Below are positions 8,078 through 64,000 of a stretch of DNA of 64,000 nucleotides, piece after piece. Source of the DNA: Thiomicrospira aerophila AL3 (lineage in GTDB: Bacteria > Pseudomonadota > Gammaproteobacteria > Thiomicrospirales > Thiomicrospiraceae); assembly GCF_000227665.2 (NCBI RefSeq), contig NZ_CP007030.1:1116001-1180000 (forward strand). Direction: 5' to 3'. Both the position numbers and the translations under genes were made by a program. Positions within the stretch are counted from its first letter, which is position 1. Every line of letters starts with the position of its first letter. The notes beneath the pieces are model-generated. The model did no database searches and had not been told where the DNA came from. It saw nothing but the letters and a program-made list of their open reading frames with translations.

Positions 8078-8174
8078 TTTTATGGCGGCAATCATACCAT
8101 TTTTTTGCACTAAAAAGATAGCCAGGCTCAGACCCAGCTATAAGAGAAGCCATTAAGCTATTGATTTTTATGAT

Positions 8175-57905: not shown

Positions 57906-57982
57906 ACGACCGTAGCTCAGTTGGTTAGAGCACCACCTTGACATGGTGGGGGTCGGTGGTTCGAATCCACTCGGTCGTACCA
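57906..57982 (+). tRNA. tRNA-Val (GAC)
   Basis: A 77-base tRNA with acceptor ACGACCG/CGGTCGT, anticodon loop TTGACAT (anticodon GAC) and encoded CCA. It is the last host gene before the integrated element, so its 3' end may have served as the attachment site. Confidence 0.96.
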
Positions 57983-58270
57983 AATAACCGTTATAAATCA
58001 AGCACTTACCAACCTAGATCAATCTTCAATTTTGCCTAAAATATTTCTAGGGTCAAAATAGGGTCACAAAAAATAGCTTAGAAAGCTAACTTTTAAAACG
58101 CCCCAACTTAATCAAATGAAGACACGTTAGTTTTATCTAACTCCATCTCAATGGCTTTGGTCTTTTTGGGTAGAAGACATGGCACTGTGGCGGACTACTT
58201 TTTTTCCTGCTATAAATTTTACCCATCAGGGTTTGTGATAAAAAAAGCCGGTAATAATTCCGGCTCTTTA
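57983..58270. other. Non-coding junction between tRNA-Val and the mobile element
   Basis: I see no gene in these 288 bases. TAGGGTCA occurs twice (58048-58055 and 58059-58066) as a close direct repeat, and TAGCTTAGAAAGCTA is an imperfect dyad (about 58074-58090). Such repeats next to a tRNA could be arm-type integrase sites. The partner attachment site would be outside the window, so boundaries cannot be fixed. Confidence 0.35.
58246..58265 (-). terminator. Terminator at the end of the mobile-element operon
   Basis: Stem AGCCGG/CCGGCT with an eight-base loop, followed on the minus strand by seven Ts, directly after the stop of the last element gene. Confidence 0.75.
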
Positions 58271-58513
58271 TTATTGTTCGCCAATCCCGGCACGGTGCAA
58301 TTCGGCAATTTTGGCTTGATCTTGTTTAATCCAAATTGACAGCGTCATTAACCTGGCGCCGATATGTCGCAACTGATCGGCCGCCTCTACCGCCTCGGGC
58401 CGGTATGGCGTGCCGTCGCGGTAGTTCCATTTTATTGATCGTCGGGCGGCTCTTAGGTTTTCTTCAAGCTGTTTAAGTTCGTCGAATGTGCGTTCAGCGT
58501 CATAACTAAGCAT
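58271..58513 (-). CDS. Small coiled-coil protein of the mobile element
   Basis: An 80-residue, highly charged helical protein (DELKQLEENLRAARRS, then ADQLRHIGARLMTLS). I do not recognise a family. Its start overlaps the stop of the TerS-like gene by eight bases, so translation is probably coupled and the products may act together. It is the last gene of the element on this side. Confidence 0.6.
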   Translation of the reverse strand: MLSYDAERTFDELKQLEENLRAARRSIKWNYRDGTPYRPEAVEAADQLRHIGARLMTLSIWIKQDQAKIAELHRAGIGEQ

Positions 58514-58916
58514 TTTCGCGGCCTCCCGTCACATAGCGCGAGGTTTTACCTAAAGCAGCGGCGGCGATCATAAGTAAGCCCGTTACGCCTCCGGGTGTCA
58601 CGCCCCAGCGCGCGGCGGCTTCGGTGAATGCGTCGATGTCATCTTGATAAAGCTTGTCGGGATCAATCGCAATCATTGCCGCCAGCCAACCAATTGCCAC
58701 GAGTTGCAAGGGTGTAAATTGGCGCGCACGGTGTTGATTAAGGGCTCGTTTGCCGGCCTGCCAATGCACGGCCCAGGTTACATCATAAAGGCCTCGTTTG
58801 TTGCGCGGTATTTCGTTTTGTTCGTGCAATTGCCTGATCCGGCGATCAGTTACATTCAAAATTTCGCCCAATTGCGCGGCGTCAATTTCCCAAATTTCTC
58901 TTTTGTTAGTTTCCAT
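58506..58916 (-). CDS. Nu1/terminase-small-subunit-like DNA-binding protein
   Basis: A 136-residue protein. Residues about 10-50 form a winged helix-turn-helix (DAAQLGEILNVTDRRIRQL then EIPRNKRGLYDVTWAV) of the kind used by phage packaging protein Nu1 to recognise cos DNA. The C-terminal part is hydrophobic and helical (LVAIGWLAAMIAI, GLLMIAAAALG), not a typical terminase tail. A role in choosing DNA for packaging is inferred; a plain transcription regulator is the alternative. It overlaps the 34-residue peptide gene upstream and the coiled-coil gene downstream. Confidence 0.45.
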   Translation of the reverse strand: METNKREIWEIDAAQLGEILNVTDRRIRQLHEQNEIPRNKRGLYDVTWAVHWQAGKRALNQHRARQFTPLQLVAIGWLAAMIAIDPDKLYQDDIDAFTEAAARWGVTPGGVTGLLMIAAAALGKTSRYVTGGRENA

Positions 58917-59010
58917 AAGTCACCTGCAAGCCTTTGCGTTTGTTGCGGTTAGCGATCCGGCGGGCCGGGTTTGTTTTGTTGTTTGGTTTAAATTTGCGTT
59001 TGGTTTTCAT
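58906..59010 (-). CDS. 34-residue highly basic peptide
   Basis: Starts with MKTKRKFKPNN and has 11 Lys/Arg residues in 34. GGAG lies 10 bases before the ATG, and its stop overlaps the next gene by 11 bases, both supporting translation. It may bind nucleic acid. I do not recognise a family. Confidence 0.4.
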   Translation of the reverse strand: MKTKRKFKPNNKTNPARRIANRNKRKGLQVTYGN

Positions 59011-59039
59011 GCTGTCGCGCTCCAGTTTGGATAAAAAAA

Positions 59040-59086
59040 GCCCCGGCGCGGTTTCAGGCTTCCGGCCTTTACAACTGGTTCGGGGC
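59040..59086 (-). terminator. Terminator ahead of the basic-peptide gene
   Basis: Stem GCCCCG/CGGGGC, with an inner AGGC/GCCT hairpin, followed on the minus strand by seven Ts. It divides the late part of the element into two transcription segments. Confidence 0.6.
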
Positions 59087-59151
59087 AAGGGTGGCCTTAC
59101 GGCCGCCGATCAGAGGAGATTTCATTTCATTTCTGAAATGACTGCAAAACG

Positions 59152-59179
59152 CCCCAGCAAGACACAAAAAATGCTGGGG
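59152..59179 (-). terminator. Hairpin after the ribbon-helix-helix gene
   Basis: Stem CCCCAGC/GCTGGGG with a 14-base loop directly downstream of the RHH stop codon. The following T-run is weak. Confidence 0.5.
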
Positions 59180-59190
59180 TTTATGCTCGG

Positions 59191-59367
59191 TTAAGAGGCC
59201 TGGTTTTGTAGGCCTCGGTTAATTAATAGCGCGGCTGTTTGGCTCATGCTTACGCTTAGGCCGCCTTGTTCAAGTCGCTGTTTGTGCTGTTTCAAAGCTT
59301 CCGCGGTTTTATCATCTAAATGAACAGCCACGCGGTGCGATCGTTTCTGGTTGTCTGGTTTGTTCAT
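59191..59367 (-). CDS. 58-residue ribbon-helix-helix DNA-binding protein
   Basis: Reading the minus strand gives MNKPDNQKRSHRVAVHLDD followed by a helix (KTAEALKQHKQRLEQGG) and a second one (SMSQTAALLINRGL). The beta-strand RVAVHLD and the two helices match the MetJ/Arc ribbon-helix-helix fold. A strong AGGA lies about 10 bases before the ATG, and the gene starts 12 bases after the 109-residue gene ends. It is probably a repressor or a partition/relaxosome-type DNA binder. Shorter than 60 residues, so easily missed. Confidence 0.7.
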   Translation of the reverse strand: MNKPDNQKRSHRVAVHLDDKTAEALKQHKQRLEQGGLSVSMSQTAALLINRGLQNQAS

Positions 59368-59379
59368 GTTAAAACGTCC

Positions 59380-59709
59380 TCAATATCCGTCAAATACCCA
59401 GCTAGGCCTGGCCTCTCGCTTAAAATCGCCCCGGTTGCGTTGGGCTACACGGCTTGCCAGTAGCAAGGCGGCGCGTTTAGCCTGGTTTGGTGCCAGTTCC
59501 GGCCATGCTTTGCTTATGCGGGCGGCCGCCTCGTTGATACCATCAAAAACGAATGCTCCCAGGCCTGGCGCTGTCACAATGGCGCGGCTTTCGCCGTCCT
59601 CGGCTCCAGGTCTAAAAACGATCGTAGCGGAATCAATCGTGGCGGTTAAGTCAGCCGGTAAGCCTTTTGGGGCTTGTGGCTGGCTCGATTTAAATAGCCA
59701 GCCAAACAT
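59380..59709 (-). CDS. Hypothetical protein coupled to the capsid-like gene
   Basis: A 109-residue protein beginning MFGWLFKSSQPQ; the middle (ATIDSATIVFRPGAE, AIVTAPGLGAFVFDG) is beta-rich and the C-terminal half is helical and basic. I do not recognise a family. Its ATG shares one base with the stop of the capsid-like gene (TAATG), a strong sign of coupled synthesis, so it may be a head-completion, decoration or assembly partner. CCAGGCCTGG at 59559 encodes part of APGLGA. Confidence 0.55.
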   Translation of the reverse strand: MFGWLFKSSQPQAPKGLPADLTATIDSATIVFRPGAEDGESRAIVTAPGLGAFVFDGINEAAARISKAWPELAPNQAKRAALLLASRVAQRNRGDFKREARPSWVFDGY

Positions 59710-60638
59710 TACGCCACGTTCCAGAATTTGCCAGGCTCTGGCAATAGCGCTTGCACATCAAACCAACATGAAACAACCAGATTACCGGCTGCGTCTGTAC
59801 GCTCTGCAAGGAATAGGATTTCATCACCCAAAGCAATCGCCGCGCGGCTATACGCCCCTATGATTGTTGCAGTCGTGGCGGCGCTGAATTCACCCTTTAT
59901 GCCAGCCGCGTATAGCCCGCCCTCGATCATTTGCGCCCCGGCGCCGGTCGTGCCAACAATGGCGCGTAATTCATTATGTTTAATGCCAGCAGTGGCGGCA
60001 TTCGCCAGGCTAAAGGCGGCGGGGGTTGTCGCTACAATCGCGGCCAACAATTCAGCATCAACCGCGCGGCCAATGCCTAAAGCTATAGCTGTCATCAGTT
60101 CGGCCGATAGTTGCCCATCACCCAATGCCTTTTGTGTAGCGCGGTTAATTGTGAAGCGGGCTGCGCGCTGGGTGAATGCGTCGCGGTTAATAATCGCCTC
60201 ATTCGACGGCATAGCGCCGGCGGTAATTTCGCCCTCACCGGTTAGCGGATCAAGTGCAACCGCTTGGAAGTTTGCCGGCTCGATTGTTACAAAACGGCCC
60301 GGCTCTTGACGGAAGCCAACCACGCCGCCGGATTCAATCGCCGTCATTTTTTCCGGCATTAAAATCAAGTTTGCGCCGGCTTCAATTACGCGGCTATTTT
60401 CCGCAAGTTTGCGCTCTAGTGTGGTTTGTTGGCCGGCCGGGGCTGTAATGCCAGGCGCATAAATGCGGCTTTCAACGTCCAGGAATACCGGCATAAGATC
60501 GCGGCCCAAACTCATTGCACCATTAACGCCGGCTAGGTTGCGGCGGTTTTTATCGACGATAAAAGTATCGTTACGCTCAATGCCTGGTCGTGCGACGGCG
60601 CGTTTTCCGTGTTCCAAAAGTTTTGCAAGTGTTGCCAT
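59709..60638 (-). CDS. Putative phage major-capsid-like protein
   Basis: A 309-residue protein starting MATLAKLLEHGKRAV. The centre (FVTIEPANFQAVALDP, RFTINRATQKALGDGQLSAEL, RAVDAELLAAI) and the C-terminus (LVVSCWFDVQALL) have the layout of an HK97-fold capsid: a strand-rich E-loop region, then a long spine helix and an A-domain. Ala/Gly content is high and there are almost no cysteines. The call rests on architecture and context; I cannot run a profile search. No portal or scaffold gene is next to it. Confidence 0.5.
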   Translation of the reverse strand: MATLAKLLEHGKRAVARPGIERNDTFIVDKNRRNLAGVNGAMSLGRDLMPVFLDVESRIYAPGITAPAGQQTTLERKLAENSRVIEAGANLILMPEKMTAIESGGVVGFRQEPGRFVTIEPANFQAVALDPLTGEGEITAGAMPSNEAIINRDAFTQRAARFTINRATQKALGDGQLSAELMTAIALGIGRAVDAELLAAIVATTPAAFSLANAATAGIKHNELRAIVGTTGAGAQMIEGGLYAAGIKGEFSAATTATIIGAYSRAAIALGDEILFLAERTDAAGNLVVSCWFDVQALLPEPGKFWNVA

Positions 60639-60710
60639 GTTTAAATTCTCGTACTTGGTTTCAAATGGCCCGTTAGTGGGCTGTTGTGTGTCATTTTGTG
60701 CCAACCCCAC

Positions 60711-61030
60711 ACAAAAAGCCTCTGGCGAAATTTCCTAAATCGCAAAAAAACTGAATTTTTTTTCATGCCGCTAAAACGCATTTAAAAGCCCGTCATGCGG
60801 TTTTGTGGTTTTGCGGTGCTTTGGTGTGGGTTGCGCTGCGCTTGTGGCGTGGTGGCGGCTCGGTTTGGCTGAAACGGAAGCGTTAAAAAAATGCCACGCA
60901 CAAGTTAAGAAACGCGAGTCCGTTCACCCGCAAGGGCCGTACCCGCCTCAGGAGTACCTTTTGCTTTTAGGGATCAATCAACCGCCAGGCGGCGGCTCGA
61001 ATGGATAAGGGAAGCGGGACTAAGTTAAAA
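60711..61030. other. Non-coding stretch upstream of the capsid-like gene
   Basis: No convincing gene. The open frames here lack ribosome-binding sites and family features. The AT-rich part at 60735-60785 with A- and T-runs could hold the promoter for the capsid-like gene. Confidence 0.4.
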
Positions 61031-61032
61031 GA

Positions 61033-61308
61033 GGTGCGGGGTTATTTGGCACCCCTCACCCATGCCAAACCCAGTAATCAAGGGGCTTGCAGCCATTTTA
61101 AGGGGTGCGGGGGTGCGGGGGGTGTAGGCATTTCCATATAGAATGACGACCTATCATGTGTAACCCGTTCAATAACCCTTATATTTGTTTCAATAAAATA
61201 CCCCTGCACCTTGCACCCCTTTATAGATAAAATCCCGGTATTTAAAGGGTTTGCAATGGGTGCGGGGTATGGGTGCGGGGTATGGGTGCGGGGGGGTAGC
61301 CTGCACCC
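61033..61308. repeat. GGTGCGGGG iteron-like cluster, possible replication origin
   Basis: GGTGCGGGG or close variants occur at 61033, 61104, 61112, 61259, 61272 and 61285, and the complementary GCACC(CC) at 61048, 61205, 61213 and 61302. The copies at 61258-61296 form three tandem 13-bp units. The block lies directly downstream of a primase-helicase gene and includes an AT-rich stretch (61160-61200). That is the expected make-up of an iteron origin. Confidence 0.5.
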
Positions 61309-61324
61309 TTTAAGCAAATAAAAA

Positions 61325-61341
61325 ACCCGCATGAAGCGGGC
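61325..61341 (-). terminator. Terminator after the primase-helicase gene
   Basis: Stem GCCCGC/GCGGGT with loop TTCAT, followed on the minus strand by six Ts, 11 bases after the stop codon. It separates replication genes from the origin-like block. Confidence 0.8.
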
Positions 61342-61351
61342 TTATTAGGAG

Positions 61352-63433
61352 TTAGTATGGTTGCTCGTCAGAATATGCCGGCGGTTGATCCTGCCAGGGT
61401 TTGGGCACCTCGTAAAAGGTTCGGCCTTTAACCCTGCGCGGCTGCCCAAAAACGGCCTTTAGAATCGTTGCGGCCTTTTGCGCCTGTGCATTGGTTGGCC
61501 GGTCATAACCGATTTTAATTAAAACATCGGTGGCCGTTAGCTTCATAGTGCGCGGTGCTTCAATATCAAACGCGGTCAAAATAAGGTCCTCGATTGGATC
61601 GGCTTGCTTGTGATCGCCGTTAGACTGTTCAAGCAAGTTTTCTTCTTCACGATCCAACCACCAGCGTTCACCCGCTTTAAACCATTCGTAAACCTCGGCC
61701 CAAAGCTGTTGCATATCTATGCGGTGCTCATAGTTCACGCTGATAACCGGTATTGTCCACCAGCGGCTATTGCCCGTGTCATCAACTAGAAAATCATTAG
61801 GGTTCACGCTTGCACAAAATACCGTCTTACGCGGGTATTTTTCCTCGGTGCGTCCGTATGGGCGGCGGAATTGGTCATAATCGGCCGATATAAAACCTTT
61901 TAGGCGCGCTATGTCAGATTTACGAAACGTGCCCTCTAGCTCACCTAGTTCAACAATCCAGCTTGAAACGGCGCTTATGACCGAGTCTTTAATGTAAGGG
62001 TCTATAATCGCGTCAATTTTTACCAGTTCGCGCTTTTGCGCTGGGACCAATGCAGTAAACCAGGCTGTTTTGCCGGCGGATTGTGGACCCTGCAAAGTCA
62101 AAACGCCTTTAGACCTAAAACCATGCGGCATAGCAGCGGCGGCCACGGCTGAAATAAGCCAACGGCGCAAAAGTAGGCGCAAAAGGTTGCGATCATAACC
62201 AGGCCTGGTTGTTAGCGTTCCGGCCAATTCATCAAGCCGGCTGATGCCGTCCCAAGGATTTGACGTGATCCACTCCATGACCGAGTTAATTGGGTGTTGA
62301 TCGCCAATACTCAAAAGGAATTCGGCCGCCTCGGTTTTTGGTAATCCGTTAAGCGCGCATAAACTCAAAACGGTATTGATCGCCGCCGCGCGGCTGTTAT
62401 CAACCAGACCGGATTGGCCGGGGTAGGTTACTTTTAAATCTTTACCAATCACGTCATAACGCACATTAAAACCATAGTGCCTAAGCATATAATTTAGGTT
62501 TGGTATCGTGTTAAGTGGTTTACCTTTTTCGCTCATGTGCGGCCATGTTCCGGGTGGCACCGGTGGCATAGTATGCACGTCGGTTAGGTTGTCATTGGCC
62601 GCCGGCGTGGGTAGTTGCGCGGCCTCGAACATCGGCGCGGCCTTTACCAATTCAAGCATTTTTTCACGGGTACCGCCGGCGGCTATCCAGTCGGAAACGT
62701 CGCCTTTGTTCGCCAGGCCTGGCAAATCAACCAGTTTTATTTTTTCAACGCCGGCGGCGCTAAGACTCAAAGCAATGGCTCGGCTATGGTCACGCCCGGC
62801 CGCGTCATTATCGGCCAAAATTACCACGTCACGGCCAGCAAAATAGCGGTTAAGCGATGGTGGCCAGCCTTTACCGTTTTTCTTAGCGCCGCCGCTGTTT
62901 GTGGTGGTCAAAAATCCAAGCGCGGCCAAGTTGTCTGCGTCCTTTTCACCCTCGCAAATAAAAACGGTCACACCAGGATTTGAGGCCATTTCTTGCAAGC
63001 GATAAGGCAAAGGCTCGACGCCTTTAACGGACCAATTCCAACCGGTGGGCTTTGTCGGATCGGGGCGGCGTTGTCTGAAGTCTTTCGGCTCAAATCTAAC
63101 GACTTGGTAAACTAACTCGCCTACCTCGTTGCAATAGTCATAAAATGCGATGGCTCGCCCGGTGCCTTGTTTGTTCGTGTTTACCGGCTCCGGCGCTTTA
63201 AAACCTTGGTTTGTTAGCCATTCATTAGGATTGGCGCCGGTTTCACGTTTAATCAATTCAAGGACGCCATAACCCTCGCCGTTTTCATGGTCATAAAATG
63301 CGCCCTTTTGTCTATTTAGTGCAAGGCTTCCTCGCGCACCCCAACGCAATTCAGTAGCGTTTGAAAGGTTGTGATTAGGTTCACCTAGCAAGGCTGTTGC
63401 TACAGGCTCGGCGATGTTTGCAAAATTAATCAT
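61352..63433 (-). CDS. TOPRIM primase-VapE/VirE-type helicase
   Basis: A 693-residue replication protein. A small N-terminal domain is followed by a TOPRIM fold (about 155-245) with FICEGEKDAD (catalytic Glu) and LADNDAAGRDH (Asp pair), then a VirE/VapE P-loop NTPase (about 385-620) with Walker A GPQSAGKT at 449-456, ELGELEGTFRKSD and SADYDQFRRPYGR. Such proteins initiate replication of phages and satellites such as PICIs and P4. Its ATG overlaps the preceding stop in ATGA. CCAGGCCTGG occurs at 62199 and 62713. Confidence 0.9.
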   Translation of the reverse strand: MINFANIAEPVATALLGEPNHNLSNATELRWGARGSLALNRQKGAFYDHENGEGYGVLELIKRETGANPNEWLTNQGFKAPEPVNTNKQGTGRAIAFYDYCNEVGELVYQVVRFEPKDFRQRRPDPTKPTGWNWSVKGVEPLPYRLQEMASNPGVTVFICEGEKDADNLAALGFLTTTNSGGAKKNGKGWPPSLNRYFAGRDVVILADNDAAGRDHSRAIALSLSAAGVEKIKLVDLPGLANKGDVSDWIAAGGTREKMLELVKAAPMFEAAQLPTPAANDNLTDVHTMPPVPPGTWPHMSEKGKPLNTIPNLNYMLRHYGFNVRYDVIGKDLKVTYPGQSGLVDNSRAAAINTVLSLCALNGLPKTEAAEFLLSIGDQHPINSVMEWITSNPWDGISRLDELAGTLTTRPGYDRNLLRLLLRRWLISAVAAAAMPHGFRSKGVLTLQGPQSAGKTAWFTALVPAQKRELVKIDAIIDPYIKDSVISAVSSWIVELGELEGTFRKSDIARLKGFISADYDQFRRPYGRTEEKYPRKTVFCASVNPNDFLVDDTGNSRWWTIPVISVNYEHRIDMQQLWAEVYEWFKAGERWWLDREEENLLEQSNGDHKQADPIEDLILTAFDIEAPRTMKLTATDVLIKIGYDRPTNAQAQKAATILKAVFGQPRRVKGRTFYEVPKPWQDQPPAYSDEQPY

Positions 63434-63714
63434 GCTCGCACCTCCCTAGCCGCGTATCTCATAGATTCAAGTGCAATCATGTGTGCATCTAGTAAATGCA
63501 GCGTTTGGCGTTCACAATGGGCCACAAGTGCAACGGCTCTAAAAACATCATTATATTCGTAGCCTAGCAATAAACCTTGTTTAGCAATATTGAAACAACG
63601 CGCCCATAAAATGGCAAAGGAATTATTACCGTTAATTGAAATAGGTGTGTTATTATTAATATGCAAACTTTTAAAACTAGGCCCGCATAATACCGGGTCT
63701 TTTTTATTTTCCAT
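63430..63714 (-). CDS. Hypothetical protein of the mobile element
   Basis: A 94-residue protein with a mixed polar N-terminus and a helical C-terminal half (NDVFRAVALVAHCERQTLH then LLDAHMIALESMRYAAREVRA). I do not recognise a family. AAGGGG precedes the ATG and the stop overlaps the primase start (ATGA), so it is translated together with the primase and may be a replication accessory. A weak terminator-like sequence on the plus strand lies within its start. Confidence 0.55.
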   Translation of the reverse strand: MENKKDPVLCGPSFKSLHINNNTPISINGNNSFAILWARCFNIAKQGLLLGYEYNDVFRAVALVAHCERQTLHLLDAHMIALESMRYAAREVRA

Positions 63715-63723
63715 TTCAGCCCC

Positions 63724-63996
63724 TTAGCAAAATGCGCTATCAGCGGTTGAAATTTGTTTAGTGGTATTGTTTTTAATCCACAACTCTAAATCTTCAAGTT
63801 CATAAAAGACTCTCGATCCAATTTTAATGAAATGAGGAGCGGTTACGCCCCAAAGCTTACCGGTTGTTCGGCTTATGCGAATGGTTGAGGGTGTGGTATT
63901 GATAAAGGCCGCTGCTTGAATATCTGTCAAGCGTTCAGGCCATTTGCCGTTTTGTGGAATGTGTGGTTCAGGATTGAATAAAGACTTCTTAGCCAT
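63724..63996 (-). CDS. AlpA-like excisionase/transcription regulator
   Basis: A 90-residue protein with a MerR/AlpA-type winged helix: RLTDIQAAAFINTTPSTIRI (helix-turn-helix) then PHFIKIGSRVFYELEDLELWI (wing and final helix). AlpA-like proteins open satellite and prophage operons and control integrase and excision. It is the first minus-strand gene seen in the element; the ribosome-binding site and promoter are cut off by the window edge. The integrase is expected immediately to its right. Confidence 0.75.
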   Translation of the reverse strand: MAKKSLFNPEPHIPQNGKWPERLTDIQAAAFINTTPSTIRISRTTGKLWGVTAPHFIKIGSRVFYELEDLELWIKNNTTKQISTADSAFC

Positions 63997-64000
63997 AATA

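Follow-up and report, generated by a model that had tools for sequence, protein, structure and literature searches.

The window analyzed here, a stretch of 64,000 nucleotides from Thiomicrospira aerophila AL3 (bases 1116001-1180000 of the complete 2.16-Mb genome), holds most of a bounded, complete integrated island of the phage satellite type, which carries a single gene for a capsid-like protein of 309 amino acids (aa). On balance, we favor the view that this island is a satellite of the phage-inducible chromosomal island (PICI) type, packaged from a cos-like site by a helper related to the Iiscvirinae and using its capsid homolog in the way the staphylococcal island SaPIbov5 uses its protein Ccm. 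The analysis joins scattered islands and plasmids from E. coli, Salmonella, Proteus, Vibrio and other hosts, whose products are largely termed 'hypothetical proteins', into one satellite family, and names both a probable helper class and a packaging site for it.

An integrated island next to tRNA-Val

The left end of the island coincides with the end of a tRNA gene:

57934..57983, plus strand: attL (left attachment site), the 3' end of tRNA-Val(gac), with an exact 50-bp copy (attR) at genome positions 1181618-1181667, 1.6 kb past the end of the window

The tRNA gene spans 57906-57982 and the gene cassette starts directly after it, as an earlier sequence-only reading of this DNA had proposed, and the integrase and attachment repeat that this reading had suggested looking for to the right were both found. 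Directly inside attR, the minus strand (genome 1180161-1181459) encodes a tyrosine integrase of 432 aa (Pfam Phage_integrase, E 9.5e-21), which is the sole open reading frame (ORF) of at least 60 aa between the end of the window and attR. The repeats at both ends and the adjoining integrase thus delimit an element of 7,734 bp, both repeats included, with a GC content of 0.478 as compared to 0.445 in positions 1-57900 of the window. All genes are located on the minus strand, in the order integrase, AlpA-like helix-turn-helix (HTH) regulator, 94-aa protein, TOPRIM/VapE primase, a 0.7-kb gap with iterons and a cos-like site, capsid-like protein, 109-aa protein, ribbon-helix-helix (RHH) protein, 60-aa peptide, a protein resembling the small terminase subunit (TerS) and an 80-aa protein. 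The ORFs of the earlier list are all present in these places, and the noted coupling by overlapping start and stop codons was seen for four gene pairs (capsid-like/109 aa, 60 aa/TerS-like, TerS-like/80 aa and 94 aa/primase). Searches of family libraries with ten element proteins detected no portal, large terminase or protease, and Pfam and PHROG scans together with the ORF list revealed no recognizable tail gene within the element. The absence of these genes, originally noted for the visible part, therefore holds across the whole element, and the full head and tail gene set of an ordinary prophage, which might have lain just outside the window, is not found between the attachment sites or up to attR.

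In five sister genomes (G053, G054, G056, G058 and G059) the tRNA-Leu/tRNA-Val pair is accompanied by a single copy of the repeat core in the stretch compared, which comprised only 3.4 kb for G058; in G054, a match resembling an integrase lies 1.4 kb beyond the tRNA. In G055, a genome of the same genus, the identical tRNA-Val site is occupied by an 8.1-kb island (L058:978-9085), indicating that the site is a hotspot. The integrase of that island is 47% identical to that of the window element over 417 columns, and a small terminase was recognized in it (PHROG_51, E 3.6e-21); the remaining proteins of the window element and of its relative L018 (see below) are unmatched there.

The 309-residue protein and its family

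The genes for the capsid-like protein and its neighbor are located as follows:

59709..60638, minus strand: capsid-like protein of 309 aa, probable HK97-type major capsid homolog, as indicated by comparison of its family profile with the major head protein of Iiscvirinae
59380..59709, minus strand: capsid partner protein of 109 aa, 27-31% identical to its enterobacterial and L070 relatives and 19-20% to the neighbor in plasmid pMP1

Direct comparison of the 309-aa protein with 50,697 phage records yielded no match (E limit 0.1), nor did comparison of its relatives from L018 and pMP1 (E limit 0.1) and from island L070 (E limit 1). Among 72,556 plasmid records six match, representing circular elements of about 9 kb in E. 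coli, Salmonella and Proteus and the 7.6-kb pMP1 of Vibrio vulnificus; one E. coli plasmid record of 17.4 kb (L013) is a head-to-tail double according to its annotation. Apart from L013, the records L010-L015 and L017 measure 7.6-9.5 kb and are mostly circular plasmids, that is, plasmid-like satellites, and no integrase match was obtained in this group. Of 5,426 E. coli genomes, 65 contain DNA that matches the E. coli plasmid form L014. Of these 65 places 64 are chromosomal, and the coverage never exceeds 80% of the length of L014 (32-69% among the 60 matches listed); the one chromosomal relative inspected, L020, lies between yhdJ and fis. Five scans of IMG/VR returned the identical three contigs with a match to the family and two further scans none, and two pattern-limited scans of genome contigs gave no relatives. 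Profile searches added the islands L070, L084 and L085, all from a second family within the class of the host, taken to be Gammaproteobacteria; they lie near tRNA-Ser, tRNA-Ser and tRNA-Lys, respectively. The satellite family is rare: it was seen in one genome out of 62 in the order, in one out of 369 in the class and in 3 of 275 from the family of genome G721; across the phylum, 6 of 398 genomes match at E 0.05, two strongly (the own genome and G721) and four weakly.

Recurrence of the gene order in related genomes, which had been named as a check, was observed in L018, where an integrase (409 aa), an AlpA-like protein (91 aa), a 93-aa protein, primase, a repeat-rich gap, the capsid-like protein, a 107-aa protein, an RHH protein and TerS follow one another as in the window. 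The two primases are 55% identical over 471 columns, the capsid-like proteins 33% over 253, and the 107-aa and 109-aa proteins 31% over 89. L070, L084 and L085 retain integrase, AlpA, the capsid-like protein, its partner and the RHH protein together with a gene related to a phage late activator; the VapE primase went unmatched in these three islands, as did TerS in L084 and L085. The late-activator relative, at L070:7642-8115 (relative of a phage late transcriptional activator, PHROG_836, E 2.3e-7) and with counterparts in L084 and L085, is a possible means of switching on together with the late genes of the helper. A tape measure protein is present in the enterobacterial forms examined and in pMP1 and is absent from the window element. 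Such genes were located at L018:7123-9408 (761 aa), L012:912-3203 (763 aa) and L011:3281-5071 (596 aa), in each case without other recognized tail genes. The island L031 of G055, which has the TOPRIM part of the primase in common, was set aside as a relative.

To characterize the capsid-like protein, a profile of eight family members was run against profiles built for 43 proteins of the Iiscvirinae phage Bas97, which has 59 annotated (16, mostly short ones, were left out). The major head protein ranked first (score 52.1, P 6.3e-6, probability 85%), with columns 72-304 of the capsid-like profile aligned to columns 452-705 of the head-protein alignment, followed by a CI-like repressor (31.9, P 5.6e-4). 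Among the 232 stop-to-stop ORFs of phage PPpW-3 the head protein again came out on top (34.1, P 0.0019, probability 15%), ahead of the tape measure protein (30.0), and none of 200 column shuffles reached 34.1. A mixed set of ten head-protein sequences (12 loci were tried, four of which yielded no head protein) scored 30.2 (P 0.0035), a value reached in none of 300 column shuffles; these 300 apply to the mixed set and not to the score of 52.1. Reversed sequences and profiles of terminase, portal, integrase and primase remained at or below 20.6. As the family profile selects the major head protein first in both phages, the capsid proposed by the sequence-only reading is likely, if not proven, and may now be called probable. 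We hold the capsid identity with good confidence, and the 309-aa protein is probably a distant homolog of HK97-type major capsid proteins.

Several observations weigh against this assignment. The mixed head-protein set assigns the capsid-like profile a probability of just 9%, and the Bas97 head-protein alignment is five rows deep as compared to one to three rows for most decoys shown, with the deeper decoys, terminase (seven rows) and primase (five rows), scoring only about 17. The PPpW-3 head profile gives P 0.2 with the window protein alone, P 0.2 with the window, L070, L084 and L085 proteins combined and P 0.027 with the enterobacterial rows alone, indicating that the signal needs the whole family; an earlier profile comparison of five against two sequences produced no head-protein match. 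No significant Pfam, PHROG, NCBIfam or PDB match was obtained for the family. Two AlphaFold models are of low confidence (mean pLDDT, the predicted local distance difference test, 34 and 41), and Foldseek returned no match for the second at E 0.001. In a second structural comparison 3 of 432 chains reached Z >=2, phage head structures supplying the top two (Z 3.9 and 3.3), which, given the low-confidence model, is a hint only.

The failure of any curated family to recognize the 309-aa protein and the lack of a significant fold match would suit a different satellite factor, such as an inhibitor of helper assembly or packaging. We consider such a role unlikely in view of the ranking of the major head protein in two phages and of the phage head structures at the top of the structural comparison. 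The dN/dS (ratio of nonsynonymous to synonymous substitution rates) of the enterobacterial capsid-like gene ranges from 0.08 to 0.32 (21 pairs of seven sequences), which points to purifying selection.

If the protein is a capsid homolog, it might contribute to the helper shell or build the entire satellite shell. In the latter case the 109-aa protein would serve as scaffold or determine the size, and portal, terminase, protease and tail would come from the helper. The capsid-like gene adjoins the 109-aa gene in the window, L018, L070, L084, L085 and the aligned enterobacterial plasmid forms (in pMP1 by position and 19-20% identity), which would fit a complete shell, as would a divergence so great that none of the 50,697 phage records matches any of the four members compared. 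In contrast, the profile match is confined to the shell domain, which lies beyond about column 450 of the head-protein alignment, and the S78 protease fused to the helper head protein has no counterpart in the 309-aa protein; moreover, SaPIbov5 Ccm by itself is described as forming no shells (PMC8569155). A shell made by the satellite alone therefore appears doubtful to us, and we prefer a capsid homolog that enters the shell of the helper. No homolog of the 109-aa protein was detected among the 43 Bas97 proteins with a profile from which L085 was omitted.

A cos-like site and the probable helper

Upstream of the capsid-like gene, the gap contains a segment reminiscent of phage cohesive ends:

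60894..60968, minus strand: cos-like packaging site, similar to the cohesive-end region of phages Bas97 and ep3 and located upstream of the capsid-like gene

In the relatives L014 and L020, 73 columns upstream of the capsid-like gene are 94.5% and 95.9% identical, respectively, to Bas97 DNA 42-113 bp before TerS. The window segment, which occupies the same place and strand, scores 52 against Bas97, the best of 500 shuffles reaching 32; it is also the best place in the whole window, the next best scoring 32. Attention was drawn to it by visual inspection once the E. coli match was known, so that the test is post hoc; its controls are the shuffles and a tiling of the whole window. The Arya record terminates inside the motif and that of PPpW-3 has a terminal redundancy of 13 bases within it, as expected of cohesive ends. 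With the window site as query, ep3 likewise scores 52 (0 of 300 shuffles). In the comparison with 500 shuffles, L010 (72), L084 (47) and L018 (37) also scored above all of them. In Mica a cos feature is predicted at 8123-8135, away from TerS, and the motif upstream of its TerS matches that of Bas97 (61, 0 of 300). Against these similarities stand unclear results of the window site with Arya (6 of 300 shuffles), PPpW-3 (4 of 300) and Mica (257 of 300), a marginal site in L085 (3 of 500, and below the shuffles over the whole element) and the lack of a cos-like site in L070 and pMP1. We regard 60894-60968 as a candidate cos-like site of the Iiscvirinae type, its function being suggested by its resemblance and position.

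Bas97 (HeidiAbel) and Arya belong to the genus Jilinvirus of the Iiscvirinae, myophages of 41-44 kb from a group whose lifestyle has been termed enigmatic (PMC11990801). Several proteins of the satellite family point to the same phages. The window primase is 52% identical to that of Arya over 427 columns, the L018 primase 54% to that of Bas97 and 57% to that of Arya, and the L018 tape measure protein 60% to that of Bas97. Residues 58-143 of L018 TerS are 55% identical to Bas97 TerS, its N-terminal part being much less similar, while the alignment with Arya runs through that part at 41% overall; for L070 TerS, the identity to the Bas97 protein is 51% over 166 aa. Packaging takes two routes within the family: one set of members has a close match to the helper cos region, with TerS undetected, and in another set TerS is present, with a C-terminal part close to that of the helper and a much less similar DNA-binding part. 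An Iiscvirinae-like phage is the probable helper class of the family. The surroundings of the host speak less clearly for it, as the own genome has no PF05065 capsid (0 of 1) and no large terminase of the Bas97 type. Five of the 62 genomes in the order do have such a terminase; the DNA upstream of it gave no clear cos match (best 6 of 300 shuffles), and the cos-like 26-mer of the window is present in none of the 61 other genomes of the order.

Phage-type genes adjoining a tRNA, in a genome where the search for a helper was unsuccessful, might also be expected of a decayed prophage from which most head and tail genes have been deleted. Such an origin seems very improbable to us: the frames are open and arranged in an overlapping operon, the 50-bp attachment repeats are exact, a cos-like site and iterons are both present, and other hosts contain the same set of genes, the enterobacterial copies showing purifying selection. 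Since Bas97 belongs to a laboratory collection propagated on E. coli K-12, the alternative that we favor, a satellite exploiting Iiscvirinae-like phages, makes a prediction that is directly testable.

Remaining genes, proposed mode of action and known satellites

The other features of the element within the window are:

63724..63996, minus strand: AlpA-like HTH regulator, 90 aa (PHROG_66, E 7.8e-5; Pfam HTH_17, E 0.01)
63430..63714, minus strand: 94-aa protein in the same place as the 93-aa gene of L018
61352..63433, minus strand: TOPRIM/VapE primase-helicase, 693 aa (Pfam VapE, E 3e-51)
61030..61294, plus strand: iterons GGGTGCGGGG, candidate replication origin between the capsid-like and primase genes, from a motif scan
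59191..59367, minus strand: RHH protein, 58 aa (weak match to Pfam RHH_1, E 0.011)
58906..59088, minus strand: basic peptide, 60 aa, no convincing Pfam or PHROG match
58506..58916, minus strand: HTH protein of 136 aa, candidate small terminase (PHROG_57 'terminase small subunit', E 1.8e-6)
58271..58513, minus strand: 80-aa protein, no convincing Pfam or PHROG match

The AlpA and primase assignments of the sequence-only reading were borne out by these searches, the TOPRIM part of the latter less firmly, as the Toprim domain was recognized at E 0.0011, below the curated cut-off. The iterons were likewise recovered: allowing one mismatch, GGGTGCGGGG has nine matches in the 64-kb window, seven of which (five exact) cluster within 61032-61293, and none of 100 window shuffles reached nine. 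The RHH protein, also proposed earlier, was recognized only weakly, and its gene follows that of the 109-aa homolog in the relatives L018, L070, L084, L085 and L014; an RHH profile matched a hypothetical protein of Bas97 weakly, over 14 columns (P 4.6e-4). The TerS-like claim was upheld for the HTH part, the PHROG_57 match being limited to residues 6-65, so that the identification of the 58506-58916 product as a small terminase is tentative. This protein is 17-25% identical to its relatives in the alignment, and Bas97 TerS is not among its four best profile matches. The 94-aa protein and the 93-aa protein of L018 showed no match to each other at E 1.

Taken as a PICI-type satellite of an Iiscvirinae-like phage, the element might operate as follows. 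Upon infection by the helper, AlpA would switch the element on, the primase would replicate it from the iterons, and the helper terminase would cut it at the cos-like site. The capsid homolog, perhaps with its 109-aa partner, would then enter the shell and give rise to a small head, and portal, protease and tail of the helper would complete the particle. A 7.7-kb unit in the unaltered head of a 41-44-kb phage would otherwise have to be packaged as a concatemer. AlpA-driven induction by a helper has been demonstrated for EcCICFT073 (PMC6092414), and Ccm of SaPIbov5 is reported to form the pentamers and to be the sole satellite protein needed to redirect head size (PMC8569155). The latter island resembles ours in cos packaging and in its capsid-protein homolog, the only satellite protein found in the head; it differs in being staphylococcal and in that Ccm has a delta domain and is recognizably related to the helper capsid protein (PMC8569155), whereas the capsid-like gene of the window element is accompanied by the gene for the 109-aa partner.

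Several of the features by which Gram-negative PICIs are recognized were found in the window element, namely attachment repeats with an own integrase, an AlpA-type regulator and a primase followed by a predicted origin; with regard to packaging, it has a cos-like site, as judged by sequence, and a TerS-like match in the HTH part only. According to PMC6092414 and PMC10111431, Gram-negative PICIs share with it the order of integrase, AlpA and primase with an origin behind the primase, a size of about 10 kb and the use of a helper cos or an own TerS, and many likewise possess a single capsid gene. The window element differs from these accounts in its integration at a tRNA gene, a capsid family without a phage relative by direct comparison, a packaging site like that of Iiscvirinae myophages rather than of lambda, and a host genome of 2.16 Mb. 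Capsid-forming PICIs (cf-PICIs) possess portal, large terminase and protease genes of their own, and P4-like satellites carry genes of the Psu, Delta or Sid type. The former three genes were lacking among the ten proteins scanned, and the latter families found no match in Pfam and PHROGs among nine window proteins. As summarized in PMC10803314, cf-PICIs are likewise satellites with an own capsid gene and make their own capsids, in contrast to the window element with no detected portal, large terminase or protease. Phage-inducible chromosomal minimalist islands (PICMIs) are similar in integrase, AlpA, primase and very small size, and are described as residing next to fis, lacking a gene for capsid remodeling or TerS and filling full-size heads with concatemers (PMC10803314), whereas the window element has a capsid-like gene and lies at a tRNA-Val site.

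The sequence-only reading had proposed a phage satellite of an unfamiliar type; the satellite stands, as a complete island with a probable capsid, and the unfamiliarity of a layout with one capsid gene does not. Of 29 reference Gram-negative PICIs, 21 are reported to carry a major capsid gene (PMC10111431), EcCICFT073 is described with genes for a putative capsid and for head decoration, and PmCI172 with a capsid homolog along with small heads (PMC6092414); together with SaPIbov5 Ccm (PMC8569155), these published single capsid genes indicate that the layout alone is not new. In the open-licence literature, no title or abstract start among those listed was found to name the family, its strongly diverged capsid with the constant partner, an Iiscvirinae-type packaging site or tape-measure-carrying members, and no paper that joins a Jilinvirus-type name with 'satellite'. 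What is new are the family, its far-diverged module of capsid-like, 109-aa and RHH genes, the Iiscvirinae-type helper class and packaging site, and the members with a tape measure protein; a single-capsid strategy known from a few other satellites here occurs in a family that spans several bacterial groups.

It might even be speculated, although we would not expect it, that the three genes of this module form a satellite-owned head module that replaces the helper shell and borrows portal, terminase and tail. Its capsid lineage would have evolved inside satellites of Iiscvirinae-type phages, in at least four bacterial groups and in no phage searched, the enterobacterial forms adding a tape measure protein. 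Bearing on this idea is that the helper protease is fused to the helper's own capsid protein. If it were true, an enterobacterial parasite with its own tape measure would set the dimensions of both head and tail.

Just outside attR, a two-gene unit (L009:3702-4302) resembles a RelE/HTH toxin-antitoxin pair, as read from the translations. The same flank, at 93% identity over 559 bp, also follows an island in G060, another genome of the genus. This 9.4-kb island (L059:1307-10708) is located after tRNA-Leu and encodes an integrase, a primase and a large terminase (PHROG_2, E 2.4e-23); no portal or tail match was obtained among six of its proteins scanned. Its major head protein is readily recognizable (PHROG_10, E 2e-68), marking it as another capsid-carrying element of a different kind.

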